Shown here: positions 4,827-22,843 of the stretch, one piece after another
How positions within the stretch are numbered: position 1 is the stretch's first letter
Layout of the letters: every line of letters begins with the position of its first letter
IMG/VR virus record: IMGVR_UViG_3300044697_000098
Location: 1-22,843 of that record
Direction: 5' to 3' (one strand)
DNA length: 22,843 nt
Source of the DNA: a virus
Program-made: the position numbers and the translations under genes
Notes under the pieces: model-generated
Database searches by the model: none
What the model was told of the DNA's origin: nothing
The model's input: only the letters and a program-made list of their open reading frames with translations

Positions 4827-5501
4827 ATGACGGCTCTGCGCACCGCCGCGCGGTCCACGACCGCGCTCGGCTCCTTCGCCCACCTGCTCGGCATCCCGGT
4901 CGCCAAGCGGGCCGAGAATGACGAACCGCGTTCGCCGCCGGAGGACGACGATTCCGGCGCCCAACGCGCCGAAGACGAAGACGGCGCCAAGCGCGCCGAG
5001 AGCGACGACCGGGAACCCTGCAAGGAATGCGACGGCACCGGTGAAGACGACGAAGGCGAAGCCTGCGACGCCTGCGACGGCACCGGCAAAGAACCGGCGG
5101 AAGACGATGACGCCCGGCGCGCCCGCCGCGCCAAGAAGGCCGAAACCGACGAGGAGGCTGCCGAGGAGCAGGACGAAGACGAAGATGTGCGCAAGGCCGC
5201 CAAGGCCGGCCGTCGCTTCGAGCGCGCTCGCTGCAAGGCGATCTTCGCCCATCCGGCCGCCGGCGTCCGCCCAGATATGGCCGCCCAACTGGCCTTCGGC
5301 ACCAAGCTCTCGGCCAAGCAGGCGATCAGCCTGCTGAAGGAGTCCGCCAATGTGCGCGGTGGCCACCAGCATGGTCCGCGCGCCGCGCGGCCGCGGGTCG
5401 AACTCGTCGATGGCGCGCCGGCCCCGACCGGGTCGAAAGGCATGGCCGCCCGCATCGTCGCCGCCGGCAAGAAGCGCCGCGGCGAAAAGCCGACGAACTG
5501 A
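4827..5501 (+). CDS. Probable scaffold-like acidic protein with paired CxxCxGTG zinc motifs
   Basis: This 224-residue protein sits between capsid protease and decoration protein, where lambda encodes the Nu3 scaffold. AAGGAAA at 4814-4820 precedes the ATG. Residues 27-62 hold three related units, AKRAENDE, AQRAEDED and AKRAESDD. Residues 65-72 and 80-87 read CKECDGTG and CDACDGTG, two DnaJ-type CxxCxGxG motifs that could bind one zinc ion. Residues 92-133 are highly charged and probably helical or coiled. Residues 134-171 (ERARCKAIFAHPAAG... AKQAISLLKE) resemble, from memory, the C-terminal extension of gpC-type proteases, so this looks like a protease/scaffold gene split in two. The end is basic (KKRRGEKP). 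The scaffold role is inferred from position, charge and helicity. No J domain is present, so it is not a DnaJ chaperone. Confidence 0.6.
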   Translation: MTALRTAARSTTALGSFAHLLGIPVAKRAENDEPRSPPEDDDSGAQRAEDEDGAKRAESDDREPCKECDGTGEDDEGEACDACDGTGKEPAEDDDARRARRAKKAETDEEAAEEQDEDEDVRKAAKAGRRFERARCKAIFAHPAAGVRPDMAAQLAFGTKLSAKQAISLLKESANVRGGHQHGPRAARPRVELVDGAPAPTGSKGMAARIVAAGKKRRGEKPTN

Positions 5502-7550: not shown

Positions 7551-7847
7551 ATGGCCGAAGCTCAAGTCGCGCGCCTTGGCGCAATGCAAACCGCCGTGGT
7601 GCGCCGCGGGGTCGTGATCTGGGGCGCTGGCCCCTGGGATGAGAAGAAAAGGGCCTTTCATCCGCCGGCCGTGAAATCCGGCCCCGGCGAGAAAGTCAGC
7701 CTTCCGGCGAAGGAGGTCGCTCGGCTGCGCGCCGCCGGCGTGCTGCATGACCCCCAACAACCTGAGATCGCCATGGGCATGGGCCCGAGCTACGCGATCG
7801 AGGATGGTAAGCAGGTGGAGAAGCTGTCGGCGGACGCCGCGGCTTAA
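7551..7847 (+). CDS. Small post-capsid protein (Mu gp35/HI1506-like by position)
   Basis: This is a 98-residue protein with a strong ribosome binding site (AGGAGGCC at 7541-7548) and ATG 7551. The segment GPGEKVSLPAKEVARLRAAGVLHDP, at about residues 44-68, resembles the short domain of small proteins that follow the capsid gene in Mu-like and lambda-like phages, where it is often described as HI1506- or gp35-like. No enzymatic motif is visible, and there is no signal peptide or membrane segment. The next gene begins 8 bases after its TAA. A head-completion or connector accessory role is inferred from position only. Confidence 0.6.
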   Translation: MAEAQVARLGAMQTAVVRRGVVIWGAGPWDEKKRAFHPPAVKSGPGEKVSLPAKEVARLRAAGVLHDPQQPEIAMGMGPSYAIEDGKQVEKLSADAAA

Positions 7848-7854
7848 GCCTCCT

Positions 7855-8190
7855 GTGGCCGTCGACTGGGACCAGCTCGTCGTCGCACCGAACTTTGCCA
7901 TTTTCGGCGAAGAGGAGTCGGCGTTCTATACGCCGCAGGGCGGCAGCGGGTTCTCGATCGCAGGTGTCTTCGATCCGCCGTACCACGAGGTCCGGCTGCT
8001 CGACGATGAGCCGAGTGTGACCACACAGCCGGTGCTGGGCGTGCGTCTCGTCCAGTTCCCGACCCCTCCCAGCCAGGGCGATCAGGTCCGGATTGCCTCA
8101 GTCGCCACGACCTTCACGGTCAAGGAAGTCAAGCCGGACGGCCACGGATGGGCGCTTCTGGTCCTGATGGGGCCGACGGCGGGCACATGA
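7855..8190 (+). CDS. Head-tail joining protein, lambda FII-like
   Basis: The product is 111 residues if started at GTG 7855 (MAVDWDQLVVAP). The frame is open further upstream to an ATG at 7747, but that lies inside the preceding gene, and the GTG start gives the natural beginning of the family. Visible features are VVAPNFAIFGEE, then FSIAGVFDPPYHEVRLLD, then TTQPVLGVRLVQFP and a C-terminal VKEVKPDGHGWALLVL. They match the compact beta-barrel head-tail attachment proteins (gpFII/Phage_attach type). These sit on the connector and form the docking site for the tail. The stop overlaps the next start as ATGA, suggesting coupled translation. Its ribosome binding site is poor, so it likely depends on coupling to the upstream gene. 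Confidence 0.75.
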   Translation: MAVDWDQLVVAPNFAIFGEEESAFYTPQGGSGFSIAGVFDPPYHEVRLLDDEPSVTTQPVLGVRLVQFPTPPSQGDQVRIASVATTFTVKEVKPDGHGWALLVLMGPTAGT

Positions 8191-8750
8191 CGGCGATGTC
8201 GGACATTCTGCTGGCGGTGAAGGCGGCCCTGACCGTGTCGCCGACCACGACAGCCGCCGGCGCGAACGTCTTCACGCCCGGCGACTGGCCGCTGCAGATC
8301 AACAGCTATCCGGTCATCCTGCTCAGTGTGCAGAGAGAGCGGAAAGCCAGCCTTGGCAAGAACGGGCCGCCGCAGTTCAAGACCACGACCACGGTGCGGA
8401 TCTCCGCCCGGGTCGCGGCGCCCCCAGCAGCAGCAGATGGTGGTGGCTCCGCGGCCGAGGTCGCTCTCTGGGCGCTTGCCCGCCAGATCGAGATTGCCGT
8501 GGTCAACGCCCCCGGGCTCTGGCAACTCGTCGAACAGATGAGCCAGGCCGAGGCTGAGCTGGCCTTCTCCAGCGACGGCGCCGAGCATATCGCCCAGATC
8601 AACTACGACATGGACTTCCAGTACTACCAGGGCCTTGAGGACTTCTATCAGTCCGAACTGGTGGCGCTTGAGGAAGTCGACGTCCAGTTCCCGAACTATC
8701 CGACGCCGAGCGGCCAGGATGTCGGGATCATCATCGATCTCCCCCAATAA
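8187..8750 (+). CDS. Tail completion/terminator-like protein (Mu gp37 position)
   Basis: This 187-residue protein starts at ATG 8187, overlapping the FII-like stop. An in-frame ATG at 8148 would only extend it into the upstream gene. The order is an N-terminal helix (MSDILLAVKAALTV), a beta strand region (YPVILLSVQRERKASL), TTTTVRISARV, a long helix (EVALWALARQIEIAVV) and YDMDFQYYQGLEDFYQSE. The C terminus ends IIIDLPQ. In contractile phages with Mu-like tails, the gene between the head-tail joiner and gp38 encodes a neck or tail terminator type protein (Mu gp37). I see no motif that proves the function; the call rests on order, size and a remembered resemblance to proteins at this place in similar prophages. 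Confidence 0.5.
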   Translation: MTAMSDILLAVKAALTVSPTTTAAGANVFTPGDWPLQINSYPVILLSVQRERKASLGKNGPPQFKTTTTVRISARVAAPPAAADGGGSAAEVALWALARQIEIAVVNAPGLWQLVEQMSQAEAELAFSSDGAEHIAQINYDMDFQYYQGLEDFYQSELVALEEVDVQFPNYPTPSGQDVGIIIDLPQ

Positions 8751-8772
8751 CCCAAACCTCCGAGGAGGGTGC

Positions 8773-9006
8773 ATGCTGATCCAGCTCGCGCCGGGCGTGC
8801 GCCTGCGCAACCCGGTGACCCTGCGACTCGTCGGTCCCGAACCGTTCACGGTCGGCGACCACGACTATTTCTGGCTGCGCCGCCTGCGCGACGGTGACGT
8901 CGTGAAGGTCGAATCGGCTGCGGCGGTCCCGGTTCCCTCGCCGGCCGCCAAGCCGGCCGCGTCGGCGTCCACCTCCGTTGATGGGCCCAAGGAGGCCGTC
9001 CAATGA
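8773..9006 (+). CDS. DUF2635 protein (Mu gp38-like)
   Basis: This is a 77-residue protein preceded by GAGGAGGG (8762-8769) and started at ATG 8773. The N-terminal half (LIQLAPGVRLRNPVTLRLVGPEPFTV) followed by YFWLRRLRDGDVV is the typical pattern of DUF2635, the small protein encoded just upstream of the tail sheath in Mu-like phages. After residue 48 it becomes a low-complexity Ala/Pro/Ser/Val tail. Its stop overlaps the sheath start as ATGA. Its role in virions is not known to me. Position directly before the sheath is the strongest supporting evidence. Confidence 0.85.
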   Translation: MLIQLAPGVRLRNPVTLRLVGPEPFTVGDHDYFWLRRLRDGDVVKVESAAAVPVPSPAAKPAASASTSVDGPKEAVQ

Positions 9007-16730: not shown

Positions 16731-17171
16731 ATGGACATCACCACGGTCTGGCGGACGACGCACGGCGACTGGTGCATGAGCGGCCCGGGGCTGCTCGCCG
16801 GCGACGATCTCCAGACCTGCGTGGCGATCATGCTGTTCACCGATCGGGTCGCCGATCCGGATGATGTGATCACCGATGGCACCGGAGATCCGCGCGGTTG
16901 GTGGGGCGATGCCTATCGCACCCGCCCGATCGGCTCGAAACTCTGGCTCTATGAGCGGGCGAAGCAGATCGCGCCGACTCTGCTGAGTGTCCAGAGCGCC
17001 GCCCAGACTGCGTTGCAGCCGCTGATCGACGACGGCGTCGCCGCCAGCGTGAGCGTCGCGGTGAGTTGGAACGGCCCCGGCTTCCTGCTGCTCCAGACCG
17101 GGATCCAGCGGCCCGGCGCCGCGCAGCCCAGCGCTTACAGCTGGGCCTGGGACATGCAGCGGAGCGCCTGA
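16731..17171 (+). CDS. Baseplate wedge protein (Mu gp46, GP46 family)
   Basis: This 146-residue protein has GGGAGG at 16721-16726 and ATG 16731. The family landmarks are LLAGDDLQTCVAIMLFTDRVADPDDVITDG, then DPRGWWGDAYRTRPIGSKLWLYERAKQ, followed by a long helix (TLLSVQSAAQTALQPLIDDGVA) and a closing strand region. The GWWGD...IGSKLWLLxR block is characteristic of Mu gp46 and related gp25-like wedge proteins. These link the hub to the J wedges and start sheath assembly. It overlaps the next gene by one base (TGATG). Confidence 0.92.
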   Translation: MDITTVWRTTHGDWCMSGPGLLAGDDLQTCVAIMLFTDRVADPDDVITDGTGDPRGWWGDAYRTRPIGSKLWLYERAKQIAPTLLSVQSAAQTALQPLIDDGVAASVSVAVSWNGPGFLLLQTGIQRPGAAQPSAYSWAWDMQRSA

Positions 17172-18337
17172 TGCCCTTTAGCCGTCCGACGCTTCAGGCC
17201 CTGATCGACGAGGCCGCGGCCGATGTCGCATCCGCTCTGCCGGGTGCTGACGCCTTGCTGCCAGAGAACAACCTCACCGTCCTCGCCTTCGTCCTCGGGG
17301 CGATGACGAACGGCAACTACGGCTTTCTGGACTTCATCGCTCAGAACGCCGTGCCGTTCACCGCCACCGGCGAATTCCTCGAGGCCTGGTCGGCGTTCAA
17401 AGACATCACGCGCCTGGCGGCCACGAGCGCCAGCGGTTCGATCGCCTTCACCACGACCGGCGCCAATATTCCGAGCGGCACGCCGATCCAGCGCGGCGAC
17501 GGTGAGCCGTTCGTCACCGTCGGCGACGGGACGGTGGTCAGCACGACCGTCACGGTCCAGGCCATTGACCTGAACACCGGCGCGCAGGGCAACTGCCCGT
17601 CCGGAACAGCCTTCACGCTCGGGACCGCCATCGGCGGCGTGACCTCGACCGGCGCGGCCTCGACAGCCTTCACCGGCGCCGCCAACGTCGAGACCGACGC
17701 CGCGCTCCGCACGCGGATGCTCAAGGCATACGCCGCGCCGCCGCAAGGGGGCGACCTGGCCGACTACATCAACTGGGCGCTCGATGTGCCCGGCGTCACG
17801 CGGGCCTGGGCCGTCGGCTCGACCCTCGGGGCCGGCACCGTCCAGGTGTTCTTCATGATGGACGTGTCGGAGGCGACCTACGGCGGCTTCCCGCAGGGAT
17901 CCAACGGCGTCGCCACGGCGGAAACCCGCGCCACACCCGCGACGGGAGATCAGCTGGCCGTGGCCAACGCCATCTTTCCGAAGCGCCCGGTCACAGCCGA
18001 AGTCTATGCCTACGCGCCGCTGAACAACCCGGTGGCCATTACGATCGCGGGGCTCGCCAGTTCGACAACCGCGACGCGGCTGGCGATCCAGACCGCGATC
18101 GCCGCGGCCTTCCTGCAATATGCCGCGCCAGGGGGTGTGACCGATTCCGACGGCAACCCGATCGGCGTCATGGACGTCTCGGCGATCGATGCGGCTATCC
18201 TCTCGGTCAGCGGCACGACTGGCTTCGTGGTCACTGCGATCACCTGCCCGAACGGGACGGTGACACCGGGCGCGGCCGGCAACATCACCTCCAACACCGG
18301 CTATCTCGCGACACTCGGCGCAATCGCCTATGTCTGA
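17171..18337 (+). CDS. Baseplate J-like wedge protein (Mu gp47)
   Basis: This 388-residue product starts at ATG 17171; the upstream open frame lies inside gp46. N terminus RPTLQALIDEAAADVASALPGADALLPENNLTVLAFVLGAMTNGNYGFLDFIAQNAVPFTATGEFLEAWSAFKDITRLAATSASGSI is the typical J start. The middle carries ETDAALRTRMLKAYAAPPQGGDLADYINWALDVPGVTRAWAVG, and the end carries FPKRPVTAEVYAYAPLNNPVAITIAGL. These are the conserved J-family blocks. The protein forms the arms of the baseplate and controls sheath triggering. It overlaps gp48 by 8 bases (ATGTCTGA). Confidence 0.94.
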   Translation: MPFSRPTLQALIDEAAADVASALPGADALLPENNLTVLAFVLGAMTNGNYGFLDFIAQNAVPFTATGEFLEAWSAFKDITRLAATSASGSIAFTTTGANIPSGTPIQRGDGEPFVTVGDGTVVSTTVTVQAIDLNTGAQGNCPSGTAFTLGTAIGGVTSTGAASTAFTGAANVETDAALRTRMLKAYAAPPQGGDLADYINWALDVPGVTRAWAVGSTLGAGTVQVFFMMDVSEATYGGFPQGSNGVATAETRATPATGDQLAVANAIFPKRPVTAEVYAYAPLNNPVAITIAGLASSTTATRLAIQTAIAAAFLQYAAPGGVTDSDGNPIGVMDVSAIDAAILSVSGTTGFVVTAITCPNGTVTPGAAGNITSNTGYLATLGAIAYV

Positions 18338-18995
18338 CGTGACCTTCGTCGACCTGGCCGTCGACGCCGCCGGCGACACCCTGGCGGTCGATGCCGGCGG
18401 CGACTCCCTGCTCGCCTACATCCAGAACGACTTTCCGCCGCCCAATCCGCCGGTCTTCACCCAGGCCGACTATCTGTTCGCGATGCAGGCTCTGATGCCC
18501 CGCGGCCGCGTCTGGCCGCGCTCGCCGGGCGCGACGCAGACACAGGTTCTGGCCGCTCTGGCCGCCAGCTTCTGGCGCGTTTCGGTGGCCGCCGGCGAAT
18601 TGATCCAGGACGCTTTTCCCTCCGACACCGACCAACTGCTGCCGGAGTGGCAGGCCACGCTCGGTCTGCCGGATCCCTGCATCGGGCCCCCGGCCACCCT
18701 GGCCATCGCGCAGGCCCAGGTGATTGCCCAGTTCGCCAACGCCGGCGGCCAGAGCATCGCCTTCTTCGTCGCCCTGGCCGCCCAGCTCGGTTACGCGATC
18801 ACCATTACCGAGTTCACCGGCGCCCAGGCCCATCACTGGCAGGTGAACGCGCCTGGCGCCTCGGAGAGCTTTTTCCACGTCGGGATCAACACGGCGGGGC
18901 AGCCGCTCAGCGTCGATCCGAACACGGCGCTGGAGTGCATCTTTAACCGGCTGAAGCCGGGCCACACCACAGTCAGTTTCGTCTACGGCGGGTAG
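18330..18995 (+). CDS. Baseplate protein, DUF2313/YmfQ family (Mu gp48)
   Basis: This 221-residue protein starts at ATG 18330 inside the end of gp47. The family region begins at about residue 44 (TQADYLFAMQALMPRGRVWP), continues with LLPEWQATLGLPDPC, a helix AIAQAQVIAQFANAGGQSIAFFVALAAQLGYAITITEF, and ends ALECIFNRLKPGHTTVSFVYG. ALLPxGxAWP, LLPxWExxLGLP and LKPAHT are the signature blocks of this family. In Mu, gp48 is the last baseplate gene before the fibres and probably anchors them. Residues 8-27 contain a small tandem repeat (VDAAGDTLAVDAGGDSL) that looks like an added N-terminal segment. Confidence 0.92.
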   Translation: MSDVTFVDLAVDAAGDTLAVDAGGDSLLAYIQNDFPPPNPPVFTQADYLFAMQALMPRGRVWPRSPGATQTQVLAALAASFWRVSVAAGELIQDAFPSDTDQLLPEWQATLGLPDPCIGPPATLAIAQAQVIAQFANAGGQSIAFFVALAAQLGYAITITEFTGAQAHHWQVNAPGASESFFHVGINTAGQPLSVDPNTALECIFNRLKPGHTTVSFVYGG

Positions 18996-19086: not shown

Positions 19087-20046
19087 ATGTATCCGGTCGA
19101 CAACGCCTCGAGTGTCGCCACCCTGCCGGCCGTTCCGGCGGCTGGGTCCGGAGGCTGGTTCATCGACACCGGCAACGGCACGATCGTACCGGCCTGGTGG
19201 TGCAACCAGGTCCAGGAGGAACTGCTCGCCATCCTGCAGGCGGCGGGGCTGACGCCCAACAAGACCCAGTTCAACCAGATCGTCACCGCCATTCTGATCC
19301 TCATCGGTGGCGGCTACGAGGTCGACGCCGGCACGGTGAACGCCATCGTCATCGCGCCGACGCCCGCGCCCAGCGCCTATGCGCCCGGGCAGCGCTGGTC
19401 GGTGAAGATCGCGAATACGACGACGGCCGCGGCGACCTTTGAGGCGTCGCCTCTCGCCACGCTGAACATAACATTCCAGGGCTCCGCGCTCGGCGTCGGC
19501 GCCCTACAGGCCGGCCAGATCTACGACTTCGAATATGACGGGGCGAACATCCAGCTCCTGACGCCGCCTGGCGGCTCCAGCGCGTGGCTGACCAACGGCC
19601 AGCTCGCCCAAATGGCCGCCGGCAGGGTCAAGGCGAACCTGACAGGCTCGGCCGCCGCGCCCGCGGATGTCACGCTTGCGGCGCTTGCCACCGCCCTCGG
19701 CGTCGTCACCCAGACCGTCACCACCAATTCGCTCGGCACGGCGGTCGATATCGGCGGCCAGATCACGCAGCGCGGGACATTCACCTTCACGTTCACGGGT
19801 GAGGAGTTCGAGGGGAATATTCCGTTCGACTTCCCGATCGCGTTCCCGGCGTCGTGCGATGTCTGCATCGTTCAAAGTCAGGACAAGCATGACGCATCCG
19901 ACCCGACCACCGCGACCGATAACGACACGGTCATCTGCTACAACCTCTCGCTGACGGGCGCGGAAATTCGGGTGGACCCAGATTCCGGCACGGGCGAGAC
20001 CCTGACCGGCACGCACACCTTCATGTTCATCGCGATCGGCTCCTAG
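19087..20046 (+). CDS. Tail fibre protein with gp53-like C-terminal domain
   Basis: The product is 319 residues from ATG 19087, chosen because GGGAGGGG at 19077-19084 lies just upstream. An in-frame ATG at 19036 is less well supported. The N terminus (ASSVATLPAVPAAGSGGWFIDTGNGTIVPAWWCNQVQEELLAILQAAGL...) is the common attachment segment of phage tail fibres: 'PGFFxxGxP...VxAxWLNxVQEELxxxIxxAGLxxxK...QLxxAI'. A beta-rich middle (about 80-180) follows, then residues 188-215 (helical AQMAAGRVKANLTGSAAAPADVTLAALATALG). The C terminus (about 230-319) has FDFPIAFPASCDVCIVQSQD and TGTHTFMFIAIGS, resembling the receptor-binding gp53-like C-terminal domain. The likely role is host receptor recognition. 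Confidence 0.82.
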   Translation: MYPVDNASSVATLPAVPAAGSGGWFIDTGNGTIVPAWWCNQVQEELLAILQAAGLTPNKTQFNQIVTAILILIGGGYEVDAGTVNAIVIAPTPAPSAYAPGQRWSVKIANTTTAAATFEASPLATLNITFQGSALGVGALQAGQIYDFEYDGANIQLLTPPGGSSAWLTNGQLAQMAAGRVKANLTGSAAAPADVTLAALATALGVVTQTVTTNSLGTAVDIGGQITQRGTFTFTFTGEEFEGNIPFDFPIAFPASCDVCIVQSQDKHDASDPTTATDNDTVICYNLSLTGAEIRVDPDSGTGETLTGTHTFMFIAIGS

Positions 20047-20110: not shown

Positions 20111-22408
20111 ATGATCCGACTCCGCGCCATCGGCTTTTGGCTTGCGATGATGCTCACGCCAGCGATGGTGTCCGCGGCGACGACGTCGATTCCGCTGCCC
20201 AGCCTGCCGAACAACCCCACGCCAGTCGGCTCCGACCTGATCCCCGACCAGCCCAATGGTTCGTTGACGCTGAAATATGTCACGCTCGACCAGATCAAGG
20301 GCTATGTGGCTGGCGGATCTGTCACCAGCGTTGGCCTGACCCTCCCTTCGCCGTGGAGTTGCACCGGCTCCCCGGTGACCGGCGCCGGGATCATCGCTTG
20401 CACGGTCGCGGTCCAGAGCGCCAACACCATCTACGCCGGGCCGTCCTCGGGCTCTCCGGCCGCGCCCGCCTTCCGCGCACTGGTCGCGGCTGACTTGCCG
20501 GCGAGTGGTGTGACGCCAGGAACTTGCACAAGCTGCAACCTGACGTTTGACGTCGCTGGCCGCATCACGGTGGCCGCGAACGGTTCGGGGGGAGGGGGTG
20601 CGCCGGCGGGATCGGTCAATCAGCTACAGACCAACGCGGGTTCGGGAAGCTTCGGCTACGTGCCGTCGAGCGACGGCCTTAACGCCTTCGCCATCAATCC
20701 GGTGCGAACGGGCCTCGAGGCCGAATATCCGATCCTCGATGGCTCGGGCTCCAGCGTCGCGGATATCAGCGGAAACGGCGCGACGGCGACGTTGAGTTCG
20801 GCGACGCCGCCGACCTGGACGACCTATGGAATATTCTTCCAGGCGGCGAAAAACGCCAATGTCACAGTCAGCTACACTGAGCAATATGTTCAGACGCCGA
20901 TCGCGACGTGGAAGACCGCGATAGTCAACGCTTGCGTCGCGCCCCTTCCGCAGACCAGCGGCAACTTGCTGTACGGCCCCTATTTCTCGACCTATCCGAC
21001 GATCCTCGCACCATCGACCAACAGCGATGGCTTGATGCTGATCGTGCCCACCGTGGCGACGCACTCCGGGGCGATTTTTCCGGCGGTCTATGCCCAGAAC
21101 GGCGGCAGCTTCAACACTACCGCTCAATCCCCAGCGCCTGAGCCCTGCGCCACGATCGCGATCACCCTGGACACCGCCGATCATATCTACATCGATGGCG
21201 TCGAGATCGCCTACGCCGCCCAGGGCGCGAGTTCGTCGAAGGTGACCACGACCGGCAGTTATCGGTTCGGTTCCAATGGCCCGACGCCTAGCACCAATTA
21301 CTTCATGGGTTCGATCAATTATCTTGAGTTCTATTCTGGCGTCCTGACGCCGACCCAGATCGCCCAGGAAGCGCAATACATAAACTACAAGGTCCGCTCG
21401 CGGCCGGGGTTTCCGCTGACGTCTCGTGCATCGACGAACACGCCTCAGATCATATGTATCGGTGACAGCTTGACCGCCGCCGCCACCGGCTCTCCGTGGT
21501 GCCTATCGAGCGTAATGACTACCACCAACACCTACGGTTTCTCGAATTGGGGGATCGGCAGCGACCAGCCGAATACTGACCTCGCCAGCGGCGCCATTCG
21601 CTATCAGACCGCGATCTCACCGGTTTCCGGCGGCAACATCTGCAACATTTTCGAGGGGACAAATTCTTTCGCCGACTCCACCTTCACTCCATTGCAGGTT
21701 TGGGATCAGCTTCAGGCGCTTGGGCGTCAGGCGCGCGCAGCCGGATGCAACCGGGTCATTGTCGACACGATGATTTCGCGAAATGGCTACGATACGAGCA
21801 AGAACGCCTATAACGCGCTCATCAGAGCCGGCTGGCGGCAGACGTTCGACGCCATGGCGGATTTCGGCGCCATTCCGGGCATCGGGGCTGACGGCGCCTA
21901 CAGGCAAACCTCGTCGCCCGCGTGTTTTTATAGTGATGGAATCCACCTTTCGAGCTCGGGAACCTGCGCGACCTATGCGGGATCGAGCATCGCCTCCTAC
22001 CCGCTGCTCGGGGCAGTCCTGGCGAACGAGATCAACGCCCTCGATGGGTCGACACCTTATCTGCCTTCGACGACGGCCTGCCCGTCAAACGTCTATACTG
22101 AGGGATTTGCCGACACCTATCTCCTCGCGACACCCACCGCCGCCTGCACGATCACCTTCCCGGACGCGACCGGCCAGACCGGGATGAAGCGTTCGCTCAT
22201 CAATAATTCGGCGTTTTCGATCACGGTGGTCGGCGCGACCGAATACTACGGGAACGGCTCATCCGCTGGCGCGGCCCCGATAGTGGGATCAACCACCATC
22301 GCCGCCAACAGCACTGCGGAGTTCACTTCCATGTTGGCCGGCACGCCGTCCGATCCGCTTCCGAACCTCACGAGCGCCATCTCCTACCAGTGGCTGCGAA
22401 CGAAGTAA
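20111..22408 (+). CDS. Fibre-like SGNH/GDSL hydrolase with signal peptide and LamG-like region
   Basis: This 765-residue product starts at ATG 20111, preceded by GAAGG at 20096-20100. Residues 1-22 look like a Sec signal peptide: R3/R5, hydrophobic AIGFWLAMMLTPAMV, cleavage after VSA. Residues 45-165 carry tail-fibre motifs (IYAGPSSGSPAAPAFRALVAADLP, GRITVAANGSGGGG). Residues about 205-415 resemble a laminin-G/concanavalin-like sandwich (YPILDGSGSSVADISGNGATATL ... HIYIDGVEI). Residues about 446-640 form an SGNH hydrolase: GDS with Ser453, block II NWGIGSD (Gly481/483), EGTN with Asn518, and SDGIH with Asp609 and His612, so all catalytic residues are present. Residues 650-765 are a beta-rich tail. 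Fourteen cysteines fit an exported protein. Possible roles are an adsorption-linked esterase that deacetylates surface polysaccharide or a lysogen envelope-modifying enzyme. The substrate is unknown. Confidence 0.8.
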   Translation: MIRLRAIGFWLAMMLTPAMVSAATTSIPLPSLPNNPTPVGSDLIPDQPNGSLTLKYVTLDQIKGYVAGGSVTSVGLTLPSPWSCTGSPVTGAGIIACTVAVQSANTIYAGPSSGSPAAPAFRALVAADLPASGVTPGTCTSCNLTFDVAGRITVAANGSGGGGAPAGSVNQLQTNAGSGSFGYVPSSDGLNAFAINPVRTGLEAEYPILDGSGSSVADISGNGATATLSSATPPTWTTYGIFFQAAKNANVTVSYTEQYVQTPIATWKTAIVNACVAPLPQTSGNLLYGPYFSTYPTILAPSTNSDGLMLIVPTVATHSGAIFPAVYAQNGGSFNTTAQSPAPEPCATIAITLDTADHIYIDGVEIAYAAQGASSSKVTTTGSYRFGSNGPTPSTNYFMGSINYLEFYSGVLTPTQIAQEAQYINYKVRSRPGFPLTSRASTNTPQIICIGDSLTAAATGSPWCLSSVMTTTNTYGFSNWGIGSDQPNTDLASGAIRYQTAISPVSGGNICNIFEGTNSFADSTFTPLQVWDQLQALGRQARAAGCNRVIVDTMISRNGYDTSKNAYNALIRAGWRQTFDAMADFGAIPGIGADGAYRQTSSPACFYSDGIHLSSSGTCATYAGSSIASYPLLGAVLANEINALDGSTPYLPSTTACPSNVYTEGFADTYLLATPTAACTITFPDATGQTGMKRSLINNSAFSITVVGATEYYGNGSSAGAAPIVGSTTIAANSTAEFTSMLAGTPSDPLPNLTSAISYQWLRTK

Positions 22409-22428: not shown

Positions 22429-22843
22429 CTAGGCCGGCCGCGCCAGAGGCGCCCACCGCCGGATGCGATCGACCGTCGCCTGCACAGCGGCGACCACTGG
22501 GCGCTTTCTCGCCAGCACCCGCTTCTCGACGAAATACCAGGAGAATGCCGCGTAGACGAAGCACAACGGGATCACGATGGCGAAATTGCCGAGAGCGGTC
22601 TTGCCCCAGGGCAACAGCCAGACGGCCTGCTGCATGGGGTAGGCGAAGAGATAGATCCCGTAGGAATAGTCGCCGCTGAGGATGATCGGCAGTTTCCTGG
22701 GATGCAGAAGACCCAGCCAGACCGTGACATAGGCGGCGGGAAAGACGCCCAGGGGGCTGAGCGGCCGGATCGAAAATAAGGCGCCGCAGACCAGGAGGCA
22801 CGCCGCGAAGAGAGCCGGGCTGTGGGGAATCTTGTCGGCGTAG
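22429..22843 (-). CDS. Acyltransferase 3 (OafA-type) membrane O-acyltransferase, C-terminal part
   Basis: This is transcribed leftward; the gene enters from the right edge and ends at TAG (22431-22429), 20 bases from the SGNH stop. The 137 visible residues contain hydrophobic segments SPALFAACLLVCGALFSI and VFPAAYVTVWLGLL, then the family-typical GDYSYGIYLFAYPMQQAVW, a last membrane span NFAIVIPLCFVYAAFSWYFVEK and a basic tail (RVLARKRP). SYGIYLxHxPxQ and FSWxxVEKP are hallmark C-terminal blocks of acyltransferase family 3 inner-membrane enzymes. These transfer acetyl or other acyl groups to surface polysaccharide or lipid sugars. The catalytic N-terminal part (with the conserved His) is outside the window. 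In a prophage such a gene can change O-antigen on the lysogen; it could also be the first flanking host gene. Confidence 0.88.
   Translation of the reverse strand, partial: YADKIPHSPALFAACLLVCGALFSIRPLSPLGVFPAAYVTVWLGLLHPRKLPIILSGDYSYGIYLFAYPMQQAVWLLPWGKTALGNFAIVIPLCFVYAAFSWYFVEKRVLARKRPVVAAVQATVDRIRRWAPLARPA

Follow-up and report, generated by a model that had tools for sequence, protein, structure and literature searches.

P0001, the product of the last forward-strand gene in Table 1, combines a predicted Sec signal peptide with parts of a phage tail fibre and an SGNH hydrolase domain, and we interpret it with moderate confidence as a late, Sec-exported, disulfide-stabilised polysaccharide deacetylase that would be stored in the periplasm until lysis sets it free. 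The window, i.e. the whole 22,843-nucleotide stretch analysed here, is a 22.8-kb virus record with structural genes of a contractile-tailed soil phage, including terminase, portal region, protease, sheath, tape measure, a Mu-like gp46/gp47/gp48 baseplate and a tail fibre. The P0001 gene closes the late structural operon; it lies on the same strand as the tail-fibre gene, separated from it by a 64-base gap, and its ATG start codon is preceded by the purine-rich sequence GTGAAGGG. RNA structures predicted in its vicinity did not surpass those of shuffled sequences. Elsewhere in the window, between the protease and head genes, a very acidic 224-aa ORF (4827-5501, + strand) carries a DnaJ-like CxxC zinc motif (CKECDGTGEDDEGEACDACDGTG).

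Table 1. Features of the P0001 gene and its surroundings in the window.
Feature	Position	Strand	Basis or remark
Baseplate wedge subunit	17123..18337	+	phrog_6
Mu gp48-like baseplate protein	18330..18995	+	Pfam PF10076 E 1e-26, phrog_203
Virion-type tail fibre, no signal peptide, Gp53-like C terminus	19087..20046	+	directly upstream of P0001 gene
P0001: signal peptide, fibre-like linker, LamG, SGNH and C-terminal beta region	20111..22408	+	765 aa
Sec signal peptide, residues 1-22, predicted cleavage VSA/ATT	20111..20176	+	rule-based call; signal in 19/22 relatives
Fibre-type module, residues ~69-130 (GSVTSVGL...GSPVT...ANTIYAGPSSGSPAAPAFRALVAADLP)	20315..20500	+	matches phage tail-fibre proteins
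LamG / ConA-like jelly-roll domain, residues ~201-430	20711..21400	+	Pfam Laminin_G_3 E 8e-6; jelly-roll matches of model
SGNH hydrolase domain, residues ~446-645	21446..22045	+	Pfam Lipase_GDSL_2; conserved catalytic residues; VIA-align Z 16-17 to carbohydrate esterases
C-terminal beta-rich region	22073..22405	+	common to L132, L137 and Tunturi_5 gp342 (alignment)
Acyltransferase-3 / O-acetyltransferase-like membrane protein, C-terminal part	22429..22842	-	phrog_3333 E 1.5e-7, Pfam E 0.03

The initial annotation had described a 765-residue chain with 14 cysteines, fibre-style repeats and a LamG-like region, and this description was borne out by the ORF, by Pfam and by the fibre-module matches. 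Pfam placed Lipase_GDSL_2 at residues 449-617 (E 5e-6, below the curated cut-off) and Laminin_G_3 at residues 320-418 (E 8e-6, just under the curated cut-off), while PHROGs and NCBIfam contained no family for P0001. Residues ~69-108 matched annotated phage tail-fibre proteins, and the fibre module, which encloses the cysteine pair C84/C97, recurs in more than 500 viral contigs. No virion attachment domain was found at the N terminus of P0001 in searches of Pfam, PHROGs and NCBIfam.

Instead of such a domain, P0001 starts with MIRLRAIGFWLAMMLTPAMVSA followed by ATT, which divides into the n-region MIRLR, the h-region AIGFWLAMMLTPAMV and a predicted cleavage motif ending in VSA. Signal peptides were called with a home-made rule-based scanner considering n-region charge, an uncharged hydrophobic core and the -3/-1 rule, which 1.2% of shuffled N termini pass, counted per start. 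The P0001 N terminus scored 3.13, and the GC3 of its signal codons (0.83) matched that of coding sequence. Scanning viral and genome collections with the plain protein sequence of P0001, or with only its residues 1-82, revealed no relatives, and a genome-collection search gave weak partial matches at most. Relatives were recovered by alignment-based scans of viral contigs, first L131-L133 and then L136-L140, all with signals (8/8 at that stage); among 50,697 phage records the only relative was Tunturi_5 gp342, which has its own signal peptide.

The 8/8 pattern was treated as a hypothesis to be tested, and with 30 further loci examined a signal peptide was present in 19 of the 22 non-redundant phage LamG-SGNH proteins, counting L165, which the scanner missed and which was added by eye (MRKTCTILAGAAAWLALSATALA followed by Q). 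Proteins sharing only the fibre module carried a signal in 6/64 cases, at least two of which look like false calls (Fisher 4e-11 for 19/22 versus 6/64). In most signal-bearing LamG-SGNH members Gln follows the predicted cleavage site. The linkers from signal to LamG domain are unrelated among members, which implies that the signal was kept while the part downstream changed. Thus, the signal-peptide-like N terminus noted in the initial annotation is confirmed by the scanner score and by its recurrence in 19/22 relatives, and export of P0001 is well supported by this recurrence together with even cysteine numbers.

Even numbers of cysteines are expected of disulfide-bonded exported proteins and are an indirect, statistical sign of them. 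Mature cysteine counts in the 19 signal-bearing LamG-SGNH members were 14, 16, 12, 6, 8, 16, 8, 12, 10, 8, 10, 10, 16, 10, 8, 12, 17, 12 and 18, i.e. even in 18/19 (p = 4e-5) with L183 (17 Cys) as the odd exception; for several members the cleavage site was placed by eye, and this influences the parity. Among hand-picked signal-bearing tail-region proteins parity was even in 30/30 compared to 39/70 signal-less controls with at least 2 Cys, but this set, chosen for tail-region position and including eight members of the LamG-SGNH family, is not fully independent, since the parity was spotted part-way through its collection. An unselected scan gave a weaker contrast, with even counts in 14/18 signal-bearing versus 142/253 signal-less ORFs; the four odd cases include L064, which resembles an antisense ORF, and L041 and L046, whose signal calls are doubtful. 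Cysteine content alone was rejected as a criterion, and because the virion fibre G7C gp63.1 possesses 11 Cys without a signal, the argument is carried by parity and signal together. Comparison of cysteine content with all ORFs was uninformative, as the controls included antisense ORFs.

The hydrophobic N terminus could also be read as a segment that anchors an ordinary, cytoplasmically assembled tail fibre in the virion. The fibre module, the adjacency to a tail fibre and the existence of signal-less relatives would fit such an anchor, but the AxA-type predicted cleavage motifs, the Gln after most sites, the even cysteine counts and the variable linkers argue against it, and we consider it very improbable.

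The complete SGNH set proposed for P0001 from its sequence proved to be conserved. All four blocks of the SGNH superfamily (GDS Ser, Gly, GxN Asn, DxxH) are present, and Ser453, Gly481, Asn518, Asp609 and His612 were invariant in a five-row alignment of relatives. In a seven-row alignment Ser453, Gly481, Asn518 and His612 were still invariant, with Gly replacing Asp in L137. AlphaFold2 prediction of the full chain from 3 sequences reached a pLDDT of 34 and was discarded, and that of residues 196-657 from 7 sequences gave a pLDDT of 60 and a pTM of 0.52. In this model of moderate confidence, model residues 248-453 aligned to SGNH esterases with Z 16-17 and an rmsd of 2.5-3.5, and the SGNH part matched CE3, the Sinorhizobium carbohydrate acetylesterase Est24, acetylxylan esterases and sialate O-acetylesterases with Z 15-17. 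The structure prediction advised in the initial annotation, followed by structural comparison, returned a carbohydrate esterase-like SGNH part, with a predicted flavodoxin-like alpha/beta/alpha fold, and an N-terminal part matching ConA-like jelly rolls; parts of the model lie below pLDDT 50. Foldseek matches to sialidases and clostridial toxin binding domains were rejected as evidence of identity, as they reflect the common jelly-roll fold only. Specificity for acetyl groups is suggested by the fold neighbours and by SGNH fibres with proven esterase activity (PMC13123978).

Three relatives, L167, L170 and L178, contain the LamG-SGNH unit without a signal. In L178 (4939-8475) the unit is fused to Mtd_N, a virion receptor-binding N-terminal domain, which implies that the catalytic body exists in virion-type as well as exported forms and can serve on virions. 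In a domain tree the rows nearest to P0001 were the signal-bearing L165 and L136, and the forks placing L170 and L178 were weakly supported. Fibre heads and signal peptides thus appear to have been swapped on a common catalytic body.

Signal-bearing fibre-like genes were not confined to the LamG-SGNH family. In L004 and L005, relatives of the window phage, the tail fibre is flanked or followed by three (L004 10210-14146) and four (L005 7267-7872 and 10899-14789) such genes. By eye, L004c and L005c resemble each other and the gene that follows the SGNH gene in L136, as a small family with 4 mature Cys. Among isolated phages, Tunturi 1, 2, 4 and 5 have signal-bearing genes for fibres, tailspikes or SGNH proteins in runs. 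Tunturi_5 (PP885688.1 284114-298448; L157 25403-39737) has six consecutive signal-bearing genes, gp337-gp342, with 18, 6, 0, 0, 14 and 12 mature Cys, Tunturi_4 has gp113-gp114, and Tunturi_2 has gp13, gp14 and gp17; no signal-bearing fibre-like gene was detected among 29 genes scanned in Tunturi_3. In Tunturi_1 (PP887698.1 10371-23028; L201) gp12, gp13, gp14 (annotated as tail spike), gp16 and gp17 are signal-bearing, with 20, 10, 20, 1 and 32 mature Cys. Nearly all large fibre or tailspike candidates of this phage thus have a signal, and the single annotated tail fibre that lacks one measures 124 aa. The term 'signal peptide' is absent from the text of the paper describing the Tunturi phages (PMC11924767). 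The open literature yielded single-domain precedents and cellular exported fibres but no account of this phage class, which is weak evidence of novelty, most subscription papers lying outside the scope of the search. The fibre module also occurs in cellular proteins with signal-like hydrophobic N termini from Bdellovibrionales (L107, L109, L112), which resemble mosaic adhesive trimer (MAT) proteins, and from Chitinophaga (L095). Circe gp063 and SD286 gp38 were examined and set aside as not relevant.

These runs bear on the question whether exported fibre proteins reach the particle. P0001 might be a receptor-binding protein that folds with disulfide bonds in the periplasm and, at or after lysis, docks onto a short adapter fibre of the virion, so that the particle acquires its deacetylase. 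Signals on nearly all large candidates of Tunturi_1 would be hard to explain if none of these proteins reached the virion, and joining after lysis gains weight because this phage leaves few signal-less candidates for receptor binding, with gp12, gp13, gp14 and gp17 all signal-bearing. It gains further weight because several genomes, namely the window, L004, L005, L132 and L165, combine long signal-bearing fibres with a short one that has no signal; the short fibre of L132 is a T7-like fibre N terminus of 283 aa. The fusion of a signal-less relative to Mtd_N in L178 points in the same direction. However, the literature searched held no precedent in a tailed phage, release would dilute the partners, and a fibre of ~320 aa without a signal is already encoded by the window phage. 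The second option of the initial annotation, an unusual adsorption enzyme, would likewise require P0001 to attach to the virion once exported. We regard the reading of joining after lysis as possible but doubtful. Its generalisation, that in some tailed phages of diderm hosts receptor-binding or tailspike proteins are Sec-exported, matured by disulfide formation in the periplasm and attached to the tail only at or after lysis, in a two-compartment assembly, is rather unlikely as well. The recurrence of this signal-bearing, probably disulfide-bonded class in unrelated phages suggests that in some phages part of the 'tail fibre' repertoire is produced outside the cytoplasm.

The acyltransferase-3-like gene at the end of the window is convergent with the P0001 gene and cut by the record end. 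In the closest relative, L165, an acyltransferase-3 gene (7702-8802, - strand) is likewise convergent beside the signal-bearing SGNH gene, and in both genomes the neighbours are possibly an acetylate/deacetylate pair. This arrangement would suit lysogenic conversion, in which P0001 and the acyltransferase, expressed from the prophage, edit the O-acetylation of surface polysaccharide and block superinfection. Compared to the tail genes, gene 20111-22408 has a lower GC content (0.62 versus 0.66-0.70) and GC3 (0.77 versus 0.85-0.89), suggesting that it was acquired. Against conversion, the gene lies on the strand of the late operon and no promoter-like site was found before it in a sigma-70 scan, which is unreliable in this GC-rich DNA. 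Moreover, the genes of its relatives sit among structural genes, inside structural operons, the two acyltransferases show no detectable similarity to each other, and no acyltransferase gene was found near other relatives. Integrase or recombinase genes were reported for Tunturi 3-5 only (PMC11924767), and the occurrence of the signal-bearing class in Tunturi 1 and 2, which have no annotated integrase, indicates that it is not restricted to lysogens. We therefore consider lysogenic conversion improbable and a purely lysogenic role of P0001 less likely. The initial annotation had suggested an exported lysogen protein built from fibre parts: export holds in view of the signal in 19/22 relatives and the even cysteine counts, and the fibre parts hold in view of the module matches to phage tail fibres, but the lysogen part is not supported as a general account, given the late-operon strand and position, the relatives among structural genes and the Tunturi phages 1 and 2.

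A periplasmic esterase could also assist lysis by de-O-acetylating peptidoglycan and thereby enabling the endolysin to act. P0001 shares signal and SGNH domain with PBR31 gp40, for which such a role was suggested (PMC10975493), but its LamG and fibre modules are better suited to surface glycans, and its gene adjoins tail fibres rather than a lysis block, which makes this role highly improbable.

According to the interpretation that we favour, deacetylation of polysaccharide by a protein released at lysis, P0001 would be expressed late, along with the tail genes, and then pass via Sec into the periplasm, with cleavage by signal peptidase I. The mature protein would fold with disulfide bonds in the periplasm and be freed on cell lysis. 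Outside the cytoplasm the LamG domain may bind surface glycan, and the SGNH domain may strip acetyl (or other ester) groups from the envelope or from capsule or exopolysaccharide. We infer as the likely benefit that the coat of the producing cell is loosened and the receptor cleared on debris and neighbouring cells.

These data show an SGNH fibre body that recurs in at least 19 phage proteins together with a Sec signal and paired cysteines, and signal-bearing fibre-like genes that are arranged in consecutive runs in isolated, culturable phages; the environmental contigs in the survey are fragments. If the proteins act outside the cytoplasm, the annotation 'tail fiber' misplaces them and host-range prediction from them is unsafe, and exported fibre enzymes would constitute a new layer of phage-host interaction that is testable with cultured phages. 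If they end on virions, the textbook rule on where tailed phages are assembled needs an exception.

Fibres with an SGNH deacetylase are familiar as components of virions. Like P0001, Escherichia phage G7C gp63.1 and the Klebsiella prophage proteins 164_08 and 174_38 combine a fibre with an SGNH esterase domain for which deacetylation of surface polysaccharide is presumed or shown, and the Klebsiella fibres are active esterases (PMC13123978). The term 'signal peptide' is absent from the text of the Klebsiella paper (PMC13123978). G7C gp63.1 differs from P0001 in lacking a signal by the same scanner, in its 11 Cys and in showing no BLAST similarity beyond chance. Tunturiibacter phage Tunturi_5 gp342, annotated as tail fiber protein, shares with P0001 the LamG-SGNH-beta unit (~29% identity), a signal of its own and an even number of cysteines (12), but has two tandem copies of the unit and no fibre linker, and belongs to a jumbo phage infecting an acidobacterium. 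Like P0001, gp40 of Xanthomonas phage PBR31 is a phage-encoded SGNH esterase that starts with a signal peptide (PMC10975493), but it comprises 215 aa with the SGNH domain only and is encoded in the lysis block. The Bdellovibrio MAT proteins (PMC10769870) are phage-fibre-like and signal-exported like P0001 and carry a binding domain at the tip; unlike P0001 they are cellular proteins of a predator, not phage-encoded, and by description have a conserved ~130-aa beta-rich domain after the signal (PMC10769870). Receptor-binding proteins of the Bordetella phage Mtd type are linked to P0001 by L178, in which Mtd_N is fused to a P0001-like LamG-SGNH unit, whereas P0001 itself carries a signal peptide in place of Mtd_N.
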